Below, in pieces: positions 7,229-23,522 of a stretch of DNA of 23,522 bases. The translations under genes and the position numbers were made by a program. The notes under the pieces are model-generated. The model had not been told where the DNA came from. It did not search any database and saw nothing but the letters and a program-made list of their open reading frames with translations. Origin of the DNA: a virus; the IMG/VR virus record IMGVR_UViG_3300027541_000294, positions 1 through 23,522 of that record; one strand, 5' to 3'. Every line of letters begins with the position of its first letter. The stretch's first letter is position 1.

Positions 7229-8300
7229 AAGCGGCGGCGGTCAGACAACGCGTGTTGAACTTGACCCGGCATTCAAACAGGCGGCGCTAGAGAACTATGA
7301 GTTTTCTAAGCAACTAGCCGCCCAGGAATACACGCCTTATGGCGGCGCAAGAATAGCCGCGCCCACGGCGGCAACGCAACTGGGCTTGCAGCAACTTGCA
7401 TCCGCCGGGGCTATGGGGCCAGGCACGCAGACCGTTGATTACGCAACGGCGTTGGCACTGCAACCGACAAGTATTGCCGGCAACATTCAGCAATACATCA
7501 ATCCGTTTCAGCAGCAAGTCATTGGAACGGCATTGCAAAATATTGAGAATCAACGAGCGCAGCAACAACTGCAAAACGCCGCAGCCGCAACACGCGCACG
7601 CGCCTTTGGCGGATCGCGCCAGGGCGTTGTTGAGGCAATGACCAATCTTAATGCTTTGCAAGCGGCAGGCCAAACGGCTGGCAATTTGGCTTATCAAGGG
7701 TTTGGTCAAGCGGCGCAACTTGCACAACAAGACGTTGCAACGCGCCAGGCGCAGGCTGCGCAACTGGCAGGGCTAGGTGCACAGCAACAAGCAATCCGCC
7801 AACAACAAGCGCAACAACTGCTTGGCGTTGGCGCACAAGAACAGGCGCAACAACAAGCGCAACTCGATTTGGCGTATCAAGATTTCTTGCGCCAACAAGC
7901 CTACCCGTTGCAACAACTGAACATCAGATCGCAAGGCTTGAGCGGGTTTCCTGCTGAGAATCAACAAATTGCATCACAGCGTTTATCACCAGGCCAACAG
8001 TTTGGTCAGGGCGTCAGCACGTTGGCGTCACTTGCTTATCTTATGTCCGATAAACGCATGAAAGAAAACGTTGATCGCATGGATTCGCCATTGTCGCAAC
8101 TTGGCAAATTGACTGGCTATGACTACAACTACAAGGGCGATGATGAGCGAACGGGCGGCGTAATGGCGCAAGATGTTCAACGTGTTATGCCTCAAGCCGT
8201 GGCAAAAGATGATAGCGGCATGATGGCGGTTAACTACCCACAAATTACCGGCCTATTAGTTGAAGCTGTAAAAGAACTTGATCGCAGGACAAGGGGATAA
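7221..8300 (+). CDS. Internal virion protein with C-terminal Peptidase_S74 chaperone domain
   Basis: The 359-residue protein begins MSKSGGGQTTRVELDPAFKQ. Its centre (about 95-240) is very rich in Gln and Ala and is probably a long helical rod. Residues about 274-357 form an intramolecular chaperone (Peptidase_S74): MSDKRMKENV with the expected Ser276/Lys281 pair, then GGVMAQDVQRVMPQAV, then VNYPQITGLLVEAVKEL. In known members this domain trimerises the preceding part and then cuts itself off in front of the Ser. A ribosome site (AAGGAG, 7208-7213) lies inside the previous gene. The Gln/Ala-rich body and its neighbours suggest an ejected or internal virion protein rather than a classical fibre. 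Confidence 0.8.
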   Translation: MSKSGGGQTTRVELDPAFKQAALENYEFSKQLAAQEYTPYGGARIAAPTAATQLGLQQLASAGAMGPGTQTVDYATALALQPTSIAGNIQQYINPFQQQVIGTALQNIENQRAQQQLQNAAAATRARAFGGSRQGVVEAMTNLNALQAAGQTAGNLAYQGFGQAAQLAQQDVATRQAQAAQLAGLGAQQQAIRQQQAQQLLGVGAQEQAQQQAQLDLAYQDFLRQQAYPLQQLNIRSQGLSGFPAENQQIASQRLSPGQQFGQGVSTLASLAYLMSDKRMKENVDRMDSPLSQLGKLTGYDYNYKGDDERTGGVMAQDVQRVMPQAVAKDDSGMMAVNYPQITGLLVEAVKELDRRTRG

Positions 8301-14848: not shown

Positions 14849-15292
14849 ATGTTTCGGATCAAGCGGGTGACGGTAATGTCCCAAACCACCGAGCAAGCCA
14901 TACGCTTTCTTCAGAAAGAGTGCTTGCCATTGGATACGGTCCTAAGTCCCAAGAACGGTTGGTGGTGGATGGCGTATTGCGACGGTCGGCTAGCAGGGTT
15001 TGCCGCCATGCTGCAATCCAGCAAAACACCGCAAGCCGCGTACTTAGCCAGGGCCGGTACGCTGGAAGCGTTTCGTGGCCGGGGTTTGCAAAAAAAGTTA
15101 ATCCGAGAGCGTTTGAAGTTTGCCAAAGACTTAGGTTTAACGCAGGCCATTACAGATACAACGGACAATGTGGCGTCTGCCAACGCGTTGATCGCCACAG
15201 GCTTCAGGATGTTCGAGCCAGACGACCCTTGGGGTTCGCCCAATACGTTGTATTGGAGGAAGGCTTTTGCCGTACAAAGACCCGAAGGTTAG
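14849..15292 (+). CDS. GNAT-family N-acetyltransferase
   Basis: The 147-residue protein has the GNAT core: a strand with WWWMAYCDGRLAGFAAM, then the acetyl-CoA loop FRGRGLQKKLI (Arg76-Gly77-Arg78-Gly79), and the C-terminal NVASANALIATGFRMF motif with the usual Asn and GF. It would move an acetyl group from acetyl-CoA to an amine on a sugar, protein or small molecule; the substrate cannot be read from the sequence. It follows a good promoter and lies after two glycosyltransferases. Its last 26 bases overlap the HNH gene, so the final residues (AVQRPEG) probably come from sequence brought by that gene. Confidence 0.82.
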   Translation: MFRIKRVTVMSQTTEQAIRFLQKECLPLDTVLSPKNGWWWMAYCDGRLAGFAAMLQSSKTPQAAYLARAGTLEAFRGRGLQKKLIRERLKFAKDLGLTQAITDTTDNVASANALIATGFRMFEPDDPWGSPNTLYWRKAFAVQRPEG

Positions 15293-15653
15293 AGCAACCA
15301 AGCAAAAGATTTATGCTCGAAAATATTACGAGCGAAATCGAGAAAAAACAATCAAGGCAAGTGTCGCGTCAAAGCGCGTATTGCGTGCAAAGTGGCGAGC
15401 ATACAAAGCATCACTTCATTGCGAGCGGTGCGGCATACAGCACGAAGCGGTCATTGACTTTCACCACGTTGATCGAACGCCGCCAAAGCGAAACATTAAC
15501 GAGCTTGTGGCGCAAGGCGCATACAAAAGAGTCTTCGAGGAAATCAAAAAGTGTATTGCGGTTTGCTCCAACTGCCATCGCATCTTGCATCACGACGAGC
15601 GCAAGCTAAAACGCAAAAAATTAAAACTTAAACATAAGAGGAAAAAGTCATGA
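15267..15653 (+). CDS. HNH endonuclease, Zn-ribbon type
   Basis: This 128-residue protein begins at TTG 15267, with a strong GGAGGA (15255-15260) six bases upstream. The HNH/zinc site is clear: Cys52-x2-Cys55, then DFHHVD (Asp64, His66, His67), then Cys100-x2-Cys103-His104 and His108. The N-terminus is a basic helix (PYKDPKVRATKQKIYARKYY) and the C-terminus is a lysine-rich tail likely to bind DNA. It may be a homing endonuclease or a helper in DNA processing. It starts inside the GNAT gene and its stop overlaps the DUF2800 gene as ATGA. Confidence 0.87.
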   Translation: MPYKDPKVRATKQKIYARKYYERNREKTIKASVASKRVLRAKWRAYKASLHCERCGIQHEAVIDFHHVDRTPPKRNINELVAQGAYKRVFEEIKKCIAVCSNCHRILHHDERKLKRKKLKLKHKRKKS

Positions 15654-17338: not shown

Positions 17339-17980
17339 ATGGCAGATGGCGTTTACAAAATAACGGAAGCGTTTGAAGAAAAGGTTGCCGAGTACACCGG
17401 CGCACCGTATTGCGTGGCAGTAGATAACTGCTGCAACGCTTTGTTCTTAGCGCTGACCTATGAACGTGTGGCGGGAACAACGATCAGGCTACCCGCAAGA
17501 ACTTATCCAGGCGTACCTTGCGAAGTGATTCATGCCGGCGCGAAGGTTGACTTTTATCCGGTTGAAGGAAGAACGATTAAGGGCGCGTATCAATTAGCAC
17601 CCACGCGTGTGTGGGATGCTGCGCTTTCGTTTACCTCCAACATGTTTATCAAAGGCTCGCACATGTGCGTGTCTTTTACCGGGCCTTATAAGCACTTAAA
17701 GCTAGGCAAGGGCGGTGCGATTCTCACTGATGACTATGCCGCCATGCTGTGGTTCAAGCGGGCGCGTTTCAGCGGGAGGCGTGAGTGTTCCTATCACGAC
17801 GATTATTTCGACATGATCGGTTGGAACTTTTACATGATGCCGGACGTGGCAGCGCGTGGTTTGTTGCTCATGAATCAATTCTGGCATCGTGATGGTTCGC
17901 CAAAAGTGATGGAGGACATTGAGATGAGTTATCCGGATTTGTCCAAGTTTCCAATTTACGCGTTTGGGGGTGATCGATGA
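17339..17980 (+). CDS. Short DegT/DnrJ-type aminotransferase-like protein
   Basis: The protein resembles sugar aminotransferases of the DegT/DnrJ/EryC1/StrS family but has only 213 residues, against about 370-400. Retained parts include AVDNCCNALFLALTYERVAG (cofactor phosphate region), Asp93 in VWDAALSF (pyridine contact), Lys118 in GPYKHLKLGKGGAILTDD (likely PLP Schiff-base lysine) and GWNFYMMPDVAARGLLL. The small C-terminal domain is absent. It may be a minimal PLP enzyme, or inactive, or a partner of a host homologue. Full-size relatives make amino sugars for surface glycans. AAGGGGAT precedes the ATG. The stop overlaps the next gene (ATGA). Confidence 0.72.
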   Translation: MADGVYKITEAFEEKVAEYTGAPYCVAVDNCCNALFLALTYERVAGTTIRLPARTYPGVPCEVIHAGAKVDFYPVEGRTIKGAYQLAPTRVWDAALSFTSNMFIKGSHMCVSFTGPYKHLKLGKGGAILTDDYAAMLWFKRARFSGRRECSYHDDYFDMIGWNFYMMPDVAARGLLLMNQFWHRDGSPKVMEDIEMSYPDLSKFPIYAFGGDR

Positions 17981-18638: not shown

Positions 18639-19295
18639 ATGAGCGGCGATCACAATATGTATCAAAAGGCAAAACGCAAAAACCAGTACGTTATCTTTGG
18701 TTCAGGAGGGCTTGCCAAGGAGTTGATCGGTTACATCGAGGAGGAAGGAACGCACGAGATTGTGTGCGTGGTTTCAACGCAACCGTTTAACAATAAGCGC
18801 TATGCCGCCAAGTATCCCGTGGTGGAAAGCATCCGAGAGGGCGCGTTTCCTGGTGCTGAGTTTCTGTTAGCTGTGGCGGACCCTGATGCAAAGCAAGCCA
18901 TTGTTGCTAAGAACGAAGAAAGATGGGGGACGTACATACACAGCACTTGTACGGTATCGCCCTACGCGAAAATTGGTAAGGGTTGCGTTTTAGCGCCGCA
19001 AGTGATCGTTACGGCGGATGCTTGGATCAACGATTTTGTGTTTATGAATACCAATGCAACGGTTGGGCATGACTCGGTAATTCACGCATGGACAACGATG
19101 TTTCCGAATACGGAAGTGTGCGGCGATTGCGTGATTGGCGTGGCGGTGATCATGGGTATTGGATCTTATGTGCTTCCGGGTAAGCAAATCGCTAACCGCG
19201 TGAAGATTTCAGCAGGGTCCATTGTCCGCCATGACTTCAAAGGTCCGGTGCACGAAGGCATTGTGCTGCAAGGCAATCCGGCGGCGCCTAGATGA
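18639..19295 (+). CDS. NeuD/PglD-type sugar O-acyltransferase
   Basis: The 218-residue protein has the two-part layout of NeuD-like acyltransferases. An N-terminal Rossmann-like half carries YVIFGSGGLAKELIGYI (glycine loop at 21-24). A C-terminal left-handed beta helix of hexapeptide repeats (about 101-195) has IHSTCTVSPYAKIGKGC and the catalytic His144 in TVGHDSVIHAW. It ends QGNPAAPR, the usual VxxGNPA close. Members transfer acetyl groups to sialic acid or amino sugars. Together with the DegT-like protein and glycosyltransferases this suggests glycan modification. AAAGGGG precedes the ATG; the stop overlaps the primase gene as ATGA. Confidence 0.88.
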   Translation: MSGDHNMYQKAKRKNQYVIFGSGGLAKELIGYIEEEGTHEIVCVVSTQPFNNKRYAAKYPVVESIREGAFPGAEFLLAVADPDAKQAIVAKNEERWGTYIHSTCTVSPYAKIGKGCVLAPQVIVTADAWINDFVFMNTNATVGHDSVIHAWTTMFPNTEVCGDCVIGVAVIMGIGSYVLPGKQIANRVKISAGSIVRHDFKGPVHEGIVLQGNPAAPR

Positions 19296-21364
19296 ACGCA
19301 GAACTATTAGCCGCAGCGCTTGGTAACGCCAAGCGTTACAAGAGGGGGTGGCTTGCGTCTTGCCCGGTACCTGGGCATGGCAATGGCAAGGGTGATCGGC
19401 ATCCATCGCTTGCGATTACGCAACTCGGTGAGAAGTTTCTCTTTAAGTGCTTTGGCGGGTGCGATCAGGAGGATGTGTTTGCCGCCATCAAACCTCACTT
19501 GCCTAACTCGTTGAACTGGAACCGCCCGCTGGTTGCGCGTGACCCTTTATCGGGTATCAGGCCGATTGTGCCGCCAACGATGAAAGAAGTGATGGCGTGG
19601 GATTACATCGATGAGAACGGCGAAGTCACAGCGCAAAAGGTTAGGTATGACGTTGAAGGTGGTGGCAAGACGTACCGCCAGTATCACCTTATCAATGGCG
19701 AGCGCGTACCAACGATCCGTAATTGGACGCCCATACCGTTTGGCTTACCGCTCATGATCGCAAGACCCATGGCGCCGGTATTTGTGACCGAGGGCGAAAA
19801 GGCCGCTGAGTTTTTGGTTGGCATGTTCGATGTGGTCGCCATATCGGCGCACGCGGGGTCGAGCGAGTGGCCTGCCGCCATCACGCCATGGTTTCATGGT
19901 CGATTAGTAGTAGTTCTACCTGATAACGATAGACCTGGCTGGAAGTACGCCAAACGCGTCGTGAGGGATTTGCAAGGGGTAGCGCAAGCGATCAAGGTGG
20001 TTGATTTAGCCGATGACGAGTCAGCCATTGGCGATGATGCTGAAGAGTTTATCGGGCGAGGGTTTACGTTCGAGGAGTTCGCCAAACGCGTTGGCGAGGC
20101 CAACGTGATTGAGGACTTCGAGGACGTTGTACCGCCGCAACGACTAGTGATTGATGAGAAAGCCGAGACGGAACCTGAATCCGTTGTGCCAGAGAAGGAA
20201 CCGTTTGCCGAAGTTGTTGAAGCGCAGGAAGCGCAACGCTACAGGGTTGAGATGTGGCGTGACGCGAAGGATGAGCCGGTTAAGTGGTTGGTGGATAGGA
20301 TTGTGCCTGAGAAGGGATTTATAGCGCTCTATGGCCCGCCAGGCACGTTCAAATCGTTTATCGCGCTGCACTTAGCCGCCATGATCGCCAGTGGGGACTC
20401 GTGGCTATCGCACGAAGTGCCGCAAGCCGGCGAGGTCTTATACATCGCAGGGGAAGGGCATGGCGGTATTGGTACAAGGATTTCAGGTTTACGCCATGCG
20501 TATGAACTCAAGGACATACCCGTTGGCGTGATTAGGTCGCAAGTTAACTTAAGGTCATCGGATCAGGATTTTGCTGACTTGATAGCCGCCATACGAGCGT
20601 CCGAAATCCAGCGTCCGAAATTGATCATCATTGACACCTTGGCCCGCGCCTTTGGCGGCGGCAACGAGAATGCGTCCGAGGACATGGGAAGTTTCATCAG
20701 TAATTGTGGACGCCTGCAAGAAGCCACGGGCGCAGCGCTTTTGGTTGTCCACCATAGCGGCAAGGATGCTTCGCTAGGTTTACGCGGTCACTCTAGCTTT
20801 CTAGGTGCGGTGGATACGCAGATTGAGATTACCCGCCATACCGATCAAATGTCAGGCACGTTGAAGGTAACCAAGCAAAAGGATGGCAAGGACGGTGTGG
20901 AGATTCATTTCTCCATGGAGACAGTGAACTTTGATCAGCAGGAATCGGATGAAACGCATGAAACGTCAGCCGCCAAATTAAACCTGGGGTTTGAGGATGA
21001 CCTAGCCAATACGCTCGTAGTCAAACCTTTCGAGGGTGATTTACCTGATGGCGTTGGATTCAGACCGCCACAAAACGCAAAGCCAAACGCGGGGCGCGGT
21101 AAGCATCAGTCGATGGGTAGGGAAGCGTTACGCCATATCGTGAAGACGGAAGGGCAATACCAGATCGTTCAGGGTGAACGCCATCGCGTGGTGACGTTAG
21201 AGCGTTGGCGTGATGAGGTGTACGCCAGGCTAGGGAATGATGTAGAGGATAGCGATAAGCGGAAGCGTTGGAAGGAGGTGAAGGACAAGTTAGTTGAGCT
21301 TGAGTTTGCCGCCATAAGAAACGATTTGGTGTGGATCAAGCCGATTAATCAGGAAGGATTTTGA
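19292..21364 (+). CDS. Primase-helicase (Zn finger, TOPRIM, RepA-like ATPase)
   Basis: The 690-residue protein joins primase and helicase parts. A CHC2-like zinc finger uses Cys24, His29, Cys53 and Cys57. A TOPRIM region has VFVTEGEKAAEFL (Glu167) and VVLPDNDRPGWKYA (Asp211, Asp213). After an acidic linker comes a RecA-fold ATPase of the RepA/AAA_25 type, with Walker A GPPGTFKS (348-355), Walker B LIIIDTLAR (444-450) and VVHHSGKD (485-492). The C-terminal 100 residues resemble a winged helix. It would unwind DNA and make primers at the phage fork. The start overlaps the acyltransferase stop. Two copies of the iteron-like 9-mer lie inside the ATPase coding region at 20597 and 20611. Confidence 0.9.
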   Translation: MNAELLAAALGNAKRYKRGWLASCPVPGHGNGKGDRHPSLAITQLGEKFLFKCFGGCDQEDVFAAIKPHLPNSLNWNRPLVARDPLSGIRPIVPPTMKEVMAWDYIDENGEVTAQKVRYDVEGGGKTYRQYHLINGERVPTIRNWTPIPFGLPLMIARPMAPVFVTEGEKAAEFLVGMFDVVAISAHAGSSEWPAAITPWFHGRLVVVLPDNDRPGWKYAKRVVRDLQGVAQAIKVVDLADDESAIGDDAEEFIGRGFTFEEFAKRVGEANVIEDFEDVVPPQRLVIDEKAETEPESVVPEKEPFAEVVEAQEAQRYRVEMWRDAKDEPVKWLVDRIVPEKGFIALYGPPGTFKSFIALHLAAMIASGDSWLSHEVPQAGEVLYIAGEGHGGIGTRISGLRHAYELKDIPVGVIRSQVNLRSSDQDFADLIAAIRASEIQRPKLIIIDTLARAFGGGNENASEDMGSFISNCGRLQEATGAALLVVHHSGKDASLGLRGHSSFLGAVDTQIEITRHTDQMSGTLKVTKQKDGKDGVEIHFSMETVNFDQQESDETHETSAAKLNLGFEDDLANTLVVKPFEGDLPDGVGFRPPQNAKPNAGRGKHQSMGREALRHIVKTEGQYQIVQGERHRVVTLERWRDEVYARLGNDVEDSDKRKRWKEVKDKLVELEFAAIRNDLVWIKPINQEGF
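20597..20619 (+). repeat. Two GCGTCCGAA copies inside the primase-helicase gene
   Basis: Exact copies are at 20597-20605 and 20611-20619, fourteen bases start to start. They are the same 9-mer that is concentrated downstream at 21371-21559. Confidence 0.75.
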
Positions 21365-21600: not shown

Positions 21601-22260
21601 ATGGCGGCAAAAGATAAGCGCGGGAAGGTTAGAGATGGTTTGTATGGCGGATCAGAGGATCGGTTGAAGAATCCTTTTGAAGAGGATGACCAGATCGTGT
21701 TGGCGATGAATAGTGTGGCGGTCAGTGTGATGAAGAGAAAGCGTGAGGCGGATAAGGTTTGGGGATTAGATCGTTTGGCGGAACTTGTGAGCGAGGAAAC
21801 GCGGTTAAGGTTTTGGAAGCAGTTATGGCGGTGTAGGGATGCGCGGAAAGCAAGAGACGTTGAGGCGTATCGTTTGGCGTGTGGCGGGATGATGCGAGCG
21901 TTTGACGTGTTGGAGGCTGAAGCGAAGGCGATGAACGCTGAACCGTTGGCGGTAAGTGTTATGGAGGGTCAACGGGATGACGGGAGCGTGTTTGCGATTT
22001 GCGCTGATCCGGCAACTGTCCACGCCTACGCGGCCATGAGACCTAAGTGCGACTGCTGGACGATGGATGAGGTGGCGGTTATCTTGCAGCAGGAATTTTT
22101 TACGCAAGCGGTGAACATTAAACGGGCCATGCCTGGCGCGGAAGTGTTGACGCTTATGGCGGAAGAGGATATTGGTCCGGTGTACAAGGGAAGCAGTGAG
22201 CAGGCTTACGCGTTGAGCAAGGACGCGTTAAAGGCGATGGAACAAGCGAAAGGTAAGTGA
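21601..22260 (+). CDS. 219-residue protein of unknown function, upstream of small terminase
   Basis: ATG 21601 is chosen because GAGAAAGG lies nine bases upstream; an in-frame GTG at 21574 would add nine unlikely residues. The protein begins MAAKDKRGKVRDGLYGGSED and is mostly helical, with charged stretches (VMKRKREADKVWGLDRLAEL; LRFWKQLWRCRDARKARDVE), then a short beta part (VFAICADPATVHAYAAM) and the pair CDC in PKCDCWTMDE. There is no span or catalytic motif. Its position just before the small terminase suggests a DNA-binding or packaging-linked role, which is inference. Confidence 0.65.
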   Translation: MAAKDKRGKVRDGLYGGSEDRLKNPFEEDDQIVLAMNSVAVSVMKRKREADKVWGLDRLAELVSEETRLRFWKQLWRCRDARKARDVEAYRLACGGMMRAFDVLEAEAKAMNAEPLAVSVMEGQRDDGSVFAICADPATVHAYAAMRPKCDCWTMDEVAVILQQEFFTQAVNIKRAMPGAEVLTLMAEEDIGPVYKGSSEQAYALSKDALKAMEQAKGK

Positions 22261-22845
22261 GTGAACATGGAAGCAGAAAATCGAACTGAGGGCGATCTGA
22301 CGCGTTTGAGCGGCACTGGTGAGGCGGAAAGCGAAGAAGGCGCGGTGCGTGAAACGCGTGGCGCGGGATTGAGCAACGCGAAGCGTAGAGAGTTAAGGTC
22401 GATCGTGAATCGTGCGGTGCATAAGTTTCCAGGCGGCGAAGAGGGACTGTTTGAGCAGATCGGGAGCGGCGTGAAAGTGTCCGAGTTAATAGGCGCTCTT
22501 GGCGTAAGCGAGGGCGCGTTTTATTCGTGGGCGGAAACGACTCCCGAGCGCAGCGAAGAATTTGCGCGTGCACGCGCGAGGGCGGCACACGTTTTGGCTG
22601 AGCAAGGGTTGGCGATTGTCGATGGCGCTGACGCGGTTACGGCGAACCTGGCAAACGTCAGGGCGCGTTACCGGCAATGGCTCGCTGGCAAGTGGAACCA
22701 GCAAGCGTATGGAGAGAACAAGGCGCAAGTGAACGTTCAGGTGAACATCACTGACGCGCACCTGATGGCGAATCGATACCGCGAAACCGTCAACGCCGTA
22801 AACGTCGATGACAAAACCATCGATGTTGCGCCGCACAACGGGTAA
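22261..22845 (+). CDS. Terminase small subunit (Sf6-like)
   Basis: The 194-residue protein shows the features of Sf6/lambda-type small terminase subunits. After a disordered acidic start there is a helix-turn-helix-like part (VSELIGALGVSEGAFYSWAE, about 73-92), a helical centre (EEFARARARAAHVLAEQGLA) and the closing YRQWLAGKWNQQAYGENKAQ before a beta tail. It would bind the packaging site as a ring and load the large subunit. GTG 22261 has AAAGG seven bases before it; ATG 22267 is an alternative but is farther from that site. No large subunit follows directly. Confidence 0.82.
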   Translation: MNMEAENRTEGDLTRLSGTGEAESEEGAVRETRGAGLSNAKRRELRSIVNRAVHKFPGGEEGLFEQIGSGVKVSELIGALGVSEGAFYSWAETTPERSEEFARARARAAHVLAEQGLAIVDGADAVTANLANVRARYRQWLAGKWNQQAYGENKAQVNVQVNITDAHLMANRYRETVNAVNVDDKTIDVAPHNG

Positions 22846-22846
22846 A

Positions 22847-22866
22847 GCGTTGCGCTGACGCAACGC
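22847..22866. repeat. Perfect 8-bp hairpin after terS
   Basis: GCGTTGCG (22847-22854) and CGCAACGC (22859-22866) flank CTGA. It starts two bases after the terS stop codon. Only a weak T run follows (CTTTTA at 22872-22877), so it may be a poor terminator or a protein-binding hairpin. Confidence 0.65.
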
Positions 22867-22966
22867 GTGTCGCTTTTACGCCACGTCGCGTTCGCGCAAC
22901 ACCCCACCCTTCAGCGTTTCGAGGGGGCGGCGTAGGCGCGGCACCCCACACGCGCCCACTCATGCT

Positions 22967-23032
22967 TTGCATAACGGGCATCGCGTGGCTTGCCTTGCAT
23001 AACGGGCATCGCGTGGCTTGCCTTGCATAACG
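22967..23032 (+). repeat. 28-bp tandem direct repeat, 2.4 copies
   Basis: Two identical units of 28 bases, beginning TTGCATAACGGGCATCGCGT and ending GGCTTGCC, lie at 22967-22994 and 22995-23022, followed by the first ten bases of a third. Perfect identity implies recent duplication or strong selection. There are no spacers, so it is not CRISPR. Confidence 0.85.
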
Positions 23033-23106
23033 CGCCCTGCCCCCCCATTACCGTTCATCCGTTCGTCGGTTACCCAAAAAATTTTTGCGTAAACGCCCCC
23101 CATGAC

Positions 23107-23131
23107 TGTAAACGCGGTGTACATTTACACC
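23107..23131. promoter_or_regulatory. Overlapping inverted repeats, candidate operator
   Basis: TGTAAA (23107-23112) pairs with TTTACA (23124-23129), and GGTGTA (23116-23121) with TACACC (23126-23131) around CATT. The two palindromes overlap 25 bases before the 27-codon gene and recombinase. They may be alternative repressor sites or recombinase-binding sites. A TTGCGT at 23085 could be a -35 box, but no good -10 is seen. Confidence 0.45.
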
Positions 23132-23155
23132 ACTGACACAAACACAGGAAACGAG

Positions 23156-23239
23156 ATGAAGTCCACAACAGCAACATTGATCATTGGCGGCGCAATGTTT
23201 GGCGCTCTGTACGCAACGATGATTTGGATGGCGTTATGA
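23156..23239 (+). CDS. 27-residue single-span membrane peptide
   Basis: ATG 23156 follows a good AGGAAACG ribosome site, and the frame ends TGA at 23237-23239. The peptide starts MKST, then has one hydrophobic span (ATLIIGGAMFGALYATMIW). The stop overlaps the recombinase start as ATGA, suggesting coupled translation. It could be a real micro-protein or merely a leader that sets recombinase output. No family is recognised. Confidence 0.45.
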   Translation: MKSTTATLIIGGAMFGALYATMIWMAL

Positions 23240-23522
23240 ATTACGGTTATTTGCGCGTAAGCACTGATGAGCAAGCCAATGGCACAAGCCTTGACACGCA
23301 ACGCAGGGAAGTGACCGGAAACGCGTTAACGCATGGCTTGACGGTTGATCGGTTTATTGAAGATGCTGGTGTTTCGGGGCATTTGAATTTTCTTGATCGA
23401 TTGGCGGCAAGCGGTGTAACGCCACAGCCTGGTGATGTGATCATTGTGGCGAAGCTGGATCGGTTTAGCCGCAACTCGATGGATACGTTGAATACCGTTC
23501 ACGCGTTTAAGGAGCGCGGCAT
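23236..23522 (+). CDS. Serine recombinase/resolvase (3'-truncated by window edge)
   Basis: The visible 95 residues match the catalytic domain of serine recombinases: MNYGYLRVSTDEQANGTSLD with nucleophile Ser9, QRREV, then DVIIVAKLDRFSRNSMDTLN with the DRxSR motif whose arginines act at the phosphate. A break between FIEDAGVSG and the next strand is normal for the family. It would break and rejoin both strands of two DNA sites. Whether it is a large phage integrase, a small resolvase or an invertase cannot be told because the C-terminus is missing. The start overlaps the preceding peptide stop. The adjacent repeats could be its sites. Confidence 0.88.
   Translation, partial: MNYGYLRVSTDEQANGTSLDTQRREVTGNALTHGLTVDRFIEDAGVSGHLNFLDRLAASGVTPQPGDVIIVAKLDRFSRNSMDTLNTVHAFKERG

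Follow-up and report, generated by a model that had tools for sequence, protein, structure and literature searches.

Among the relatives found whose ends are described, the Sinorhizobium phage phiM5 is the closest, and its record (MF074189) carries annotated direct terminal repeats that are identical over 357 nt. A published study places phiM5 in a LUZ24-like lineage near phiEco32 (PMC10386132). At their end, the phiM5 repeats contain a C9 run, 16 nt, GGGGG and a further 13 nt before the terminus, and the bases that follow are TGCACCC. The two copies of C9 are the only C/G runs of at least seven in 44 kb, and by our own estimate the chance of finding this run within 50 nt of the end is about 0.2%. 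The repeat is spanned by an ORF with similarity to a terminase small-subunit family (E 2.8e-6), and the annotated end lies 56 nt after this ORF. The Pseudomonas phage LUZ24 (NC_010325) possesses a 184-bp repeat which, read in the orientation of terS, ends at C5, 9 nt, G5 and 11 nt and is followed by terS and terL. The phage tf, a LUZ24-like Pseudomonas phage, has fixed terminal repeats of 186 bp with experimentally mapped ends; palindromes are described at its proposed processing sites, together with a proposed core site, GATATCcc, which differs from the C/G element treated here (PMC3517423). The terminal repeats of phiEco32 comprise 193 bp.

The window analysed here is a stretch of 23,522 nt of viral DNA that is matched over its full length, at 99.996%, by a 35.7-kb viral contig (G001). 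Family searches covering part of its genes identified, besides terS and the recombinase, genes for an endolysin, an exonuclease, a helicase/primase, a RuvC-type resolvase and a virion structural protein. Positions 17339-17980 match DegT/DnrJ-type aminotransferases and positions 18639-19295 hexapeptide transferases, which suggests sugar modification functions in the phage. The ORFs at 1609-2109 and 15267-15653 resemble HNH endonucleases. The window stops short of terL, and phiM5 was compared through the relative L007, whose TerL shares 57% identity over 96% with that of phiM5 and falls into the same clade. Next to the recombinase, L007 and L022 carry terL (480 aa) downstream and, past some smaller ORFs, a long gene in the portal position (714 aa in L007). 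The features at the right end of the window are the following.

22261..22845, plus strand: terS, Sf6-type small terminase, 194 aa (PF20901, E 7.7e-12; phrog_1482, E 4.9e-13)
22847-22866, plus strand: 8-bp hairpin GCGTTGCG-CTGA-CGCAACGC just after the terS stop, read from the sequence
22902..22957 (about), plus strand: core element, CCCCACCC, 13 nt, GGGGG, CGGCGTAGGCGCG and GCACCCCACACGCGCC, seen when the window is aligned with 23 relatives
22938..22941: genome end predicted by analogy with phiM5, at which a direct terminal repeat would finish on its right side, best estimate 22939/22940
22963-23032, plus strand: 28-bp tandem repeat, 2.5 copies (TRF score 133, top of 13 TRF rows)
23040-23046, plus strand: second C run, C7, the longest C/G run in the window
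23051..23086, plus strand: CCGTTCATCCGTTCGTCGG block, found in the family only, and A6T5 tract (23076-23086)
23067-23095: palindrome CGGTTACCCAAAAA/TTTTTGCGTAAACG, 86% complementary
23088..23131, plus strand: two copies of GTAAACG and GGTGTACATTTACACC, promoter/operator-like, before the recombinase-terL genes, conserved in the family
23116-23131: palindrome GGTGTA-CATT-TACACC
23156..23239, plus strand: hydrophobic ORF of 27 aa that runs into the start of the recombinase, aligned in relatives
23236..23522, plus strand: small serine recombinase, N-terminal part (PF00239), truncated by the window end

The first-pass annotation had described 22846-23155 as a structured non-coding segment between terS and a serine recombinase and as a candidate packaging or attachment site. 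The hairpin, the 28-bp tandem repeat, the C7 run, the A6T5 tract and the palindromes it listed are all present, and both flanking genes were named correctly, with the qualification that the 27-aa ORF separates the segment from the recombinase ATG (23236). This small ORF is recognisable down to relatives with a 54% identical TerS and is swapped for a 91-aa gene in L022 and for another gene in L033. When the 310-nt segment was subjected to 500 dinucleotide shuffles, a 38-nt exact match at a period of 15-60 and the A6T5 tract were each reached in none, so that the exact tandem repeat, which is exact over 22967-23032 (2.36 units), and the A6T5 tract exceed chance. The C7 run and the 8-bp stem are weak evidence when taken alone, because a C run of seven was reached in 18/500 shuffles and an 8-bp stem in 28/500. 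A second, imperfect period-28 tandem repeat occurs at 21871-21925 (TRF score 68) in the gene upstream of terS. Folding energies of single-stranded DNA were ordinary in four stretches of the window (z from -1.49 to 0.32), which rules out folding as the key property. No match was obtained in an Rfam scan of the window, no DNA similarity to 22200-23522 was detected in phages, and the element region of a relative showed no DNA similarity to phages and plasmids.

TerS relatives were found at 33 loci in viral contigs, and the window segment was aligned with 23 of them, the ten omitted being nearly identical to others or lying on contigs that break off inside the segment. The most widely conserved part is one that the first-pass annotation had left unnamed, namely a core which in the window consists of CCCCACCC (22902-22909), 13 nt, GGGGG (22923-22927) and CGGC...GCACCCCACACGCGCC. 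In general terms, it comprises a C run, 12-16 nt, GGGG(G), CGGC and usually a GCACC-like block, with an A-tract further downstream in most lineages. The core, the second C run (C5-9 in 21 of the 23 aligned relatives, counted by eye), CCGTTCGTCGG, the A-tract and the GTAAACG-GGTGTA stretch are all better conserved than the tandem repeat, and they persist in L022 and L033, where another gene takes the first place after the segment. The tandem repeat is common to L002 and L004, L003 breaks off within it, and other relatives have different units, copy numbers or lengths or no repeat at all; it varies even between relatives with a TerS identity of at least 97%. This variation rules out the tandem repeat as a conserved binding array, and the comparison of relatives indicates that it is a fast-changing, loosely constrained spacer. 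The hairpin after terS is likewise local, being degraded or absent in more distant relatives. Thus, most of the features listed first are not the important part of the segment.

The core is linked to terL. A TerL alignment retrieved relatives in 562 stretches, from which the best 80 loci were used; the rule applied was C5+, N6-20 and G4+ followed by an A-tract, in loci with at least 1000 nt upstream of terL. Among these best 80 loci, the element was present upstream of terL in 63 of 67, counts that are not independent because many loci are close relatives, compared with 0.75 of 67 in the shuffled control. The same loci (best 80 of 562 stretches) contained a single antisense match in 99 kb and two matches elsewhere in 452 kb. 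L146 was missed by the rule with an interrupted C run and L148 with the core present and no A-tract by the rule used. L141 and L142 have no element upstream of terL; both are relatives at 73% TerL identity whose recombinase is also related (64%), and in L141 terS is located about 4 kb upstream, a rearranged terminase module.

The genes around the element are exchangeable. In 35 of the 63 loci (from the best 80) the element lies upstream of terS with no recombinase within the stretch examined, and in the other arrangement, seen in 28 of the 63 including the window's group, a recombinase is located between the element and terL. The order of element and terS thus changes while the position upstream of terL stays, and in C72C1, L338 and L339 (the latter two judged by eye) the element is found within about 300 nt of terL. 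Since it is kept with terS on the other side and without a recombinase nearby, the element belongs to terL. It is single-copy in most of the genomes tested: one sense copy and no antisense copy were counted in G002-G007, in MW202879 and at the left end of phiM5. The window and G001 fail the strict pattern because the C run of the window is interrupted (CCCCACCC). In C72C1 the element is present by eye, the automatic test with the A-tract rule having missed it and matched another place. The match in MW202711, C5/G4 at 1.7 kb upstream of terL, is only a weak one, and that in MW202496 is partial. In L317 (about 7952-8094, reverse strand) what follows GGGGGCGC of the element is unrelated, which looks like a junction, chimeric or natural, within the element.

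A scan that starts from the DNA pattern instead of a protein gave a corresponding picture. The degenerate pattern C7, 12-16 nt, GGGGCGGC, which was derived from elements already seen and has CGGC built in, was run over viral contigs and matched at least 120 stretches, of which 117 were readable and five previously seen. Among the matches listed, a TerL homologue is encoded downstream on the same strand in 78 of the 117, within 2500 nt in 72 and within 300 nt in 51 of them, and a TerL match on the other strand or upstream was found in none of the 117. These 78 stretches correspond to 56 distinct sequences, in which, again among the matches listed, the GCACC-like block is the majority after CGGC (32-37 of 56 at each position). 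No TerL was detected at E 1e-5 in the remaining 39 of 117 matches listed; 19 of these have a GC content of at least 60% and 13 have less than 1000 nt downstream. Of 18 hand-picked elements, 17 parse as C6-9, 12-16 nt and G4-6, and in 11 an ACNCC-like block starts 13-16 nt past the G run.

The element coincides with the annotated genome end of phiM5. At the annotated right end of its repeat, phiM5 has the same succession of C run, spacer, G run and CACCC as the window, in the form C9, 16 nt, GGGGG, CAGC and TGCACCC, and the element is likewise placed after a terS-like ORF and before terL, with an A-tract downstream. In contrast to the window, phiM5 has neither a recombinase nor a long variable spacer, and the distance between the G run and the cut is assumed to be equal in both. 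The LUZ24 end is similar in its C5-G5 pair and in the genes that follow; this match is weaker because C5-G5 pairs also recur elsewhere in the LUZ24 genome, and the CGGC/GCACC block is missing. MW202879 (TerL 66%) and phage C72C1 (TerL 46%) carry the C-run/G-run element between terS and terL; unlike phiM5, both are circular records, and C72C1 fails the A-tract rule. At the ends of tf and phiEco32 the full element was not found, and 7-11 and PfDIW6 showed no terminal repeat in the stretches compared. A profile HMM built from 42 distinct sequences (17 of 62 chosen loci had been dropped by the pattern) did not place the ends of phiM5, LUZ24, tf and phiEco32 above chance among the matches listed; a weak phiEco32 match near its ends ranked 13th (E 36).

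We consider it probable (roughly 0.68), on comparative grounds, that the segment contains the site where the terminase cuts and the genome ends in a phage related to phiM5. The placement of phiM5 near phages with short terminal repeats (LUZ24, tf and phiEco32) also speaks for this. In this model, the segment would be the packaging-end region of a podovirus-like phage, and the core (about 22902-22957) would serve as the site at which the terminase recognises and cuts the DNA concatemer, read by TerS or TerL. The cut would fall about a dozen bases past the G run, near 22939/22940, because the phiM5 spacing, with the end 13 nt past the G run, is carried over, which puts it between 22939 and 22941; LUZ24, with its end 11 nt past G5, provides a second spacing reference. 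Cutting would generate, as its right end, the terminus of a short direct repeat reaching back into terS. The tandem repeats would act as a loosely constrained spacer, and the downstream A-tract and GTAAACG/GGTGTA motifs would start the recombinase-terL genes. Of the two functions proposed in the first-pass annotation, packaging gains support, as the core tracks terL across lineages and matches the annotated phiM5 end, while attachment is not supported, the recombinase being small and the element separable from it.

The main rival is a headful pac site, at which an Sf6-type terminase would start packaging by an imprecise cut, with later cuts set by head filling and permuted virion ends. The window TerS indeed matches Sf6_terminase, and an Sf6-type TerS suggests headful packaging. 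Moreover, four of seven genome-length relatives show exact end overlaps (119, 93, 127 and 127 nt), with contig ends at different places. These overlaps are k-mer-like in size and thus indicate circular assemblies, which fixed terminal repeats would likewise produce. As the repeats of phiM5 are annotated as fixed and end at the element, we regard a pac site as unlikely, though worth keeping in mind. Contig ends provide an auxiliary test, because terminal repeats assemble as circles: none of 163 pattern rows (some contigs counted twice) ends at the expected offset. A locus end lies within 800 nt upstream of the element in 17 of 88 rows, in a repeat-rich stretch, and within 800 nt downstream in 9 of 88, where some of them mark the limit of a stored stretch rather than that of its contig. 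With no pile-up at the predicted cut, contig ends were discarded as a means of end mapping. In a set of loci, many AGGGTTTACC-like repeats precede the C run by several hundred nt, in a stretch where locus starts are frequent.

It is improbable that the region is purely regulatory, with core, A-tract and repeats controlling transcription of recombinase and terL and the match to phiM5 reflecting coincidence or a shared location. The A-tract and GTAAACG/GGTGTA do stand directly before the first gene, even in L022 and L033, where the gene after the segment is replaced and yet both stretches are kept. However, the promoter-like part is preceded by the C-run/G-run core, whose conservation is separate, the low chance estimate for the position of the phiM5 C9 run speaks against coincidence, and searches for promoter and terminator consensus sequences were negative for the segment, for L092 (1500-2000) and for L168 (4300-4700). 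As no sigma70 consensus matches, the promoter/operator function of 23088..23131 is putative.

An attP or res site of the adjacent serine recombinase is very improbable. Inverted repeats lie upstream of the recombinase gene, for which PHROG gives 'integrase' as the top label (E 2.8e-39), and res sites are often found just upstream of their gene. This label rests on the first domain, as the match spans positions 92-283 of 651, and the full-length protein (216 aa in L007) contains only the resolvase domain PF00239 according to Pfam and is no large serine integrase. The attachment-site reading was rejected on this ground and because element and recombinase occur separately: the element is kept in 35 loci (best 80 of 562 stretches) without a recombinase in the stretch examined, and in L141 and L142 the recombinase occurs without the element. 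In a TerL-alignment scan of limited reach over bacterial and archaeal genome contigs, 178 stretches matched and two encode a relative, one on a contig of 3.7 kb from a gammaproteobacterial bin, the other a distant actinobacterial match, neither being a prophage of the kind sought. A replication origin, in which the repeats would serve as iterons and the DNA would melt at the A-tract, can practically be dismissed despite the AT-rich tract, the helicase/primase-type gene at 19292-21364 and a drop in GC skew from 0.41 to 0.05 between the last skew intervals, since the repeats vary among close relatives and the detrended skew maximum is located 3.6-4.1 kb downstream of the segment in three complete relatives.

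A terminase cut site at a genome end is a known type of site; a description of a terL-linked signature was not found in the titles and abstracts of the literature searched. Packaging sites are rarely recognisable from sequence. We give even odds to the broader proposal that a single C-run/G-run/GCACC element indicates where the genome ends across a very large group of phages, most of them uncultivated, and that it would keep its place at terL as terS, recombinases and other genes are rearranged around it. As a cis site, the element would then go with the large and not with the small terminase. If this is true, metagenomic sequence alone would suffice to locate physical genome ends, and a signature tied to terL would allow the genome ends and the packaging mode of uncultivated phages to be predicted.
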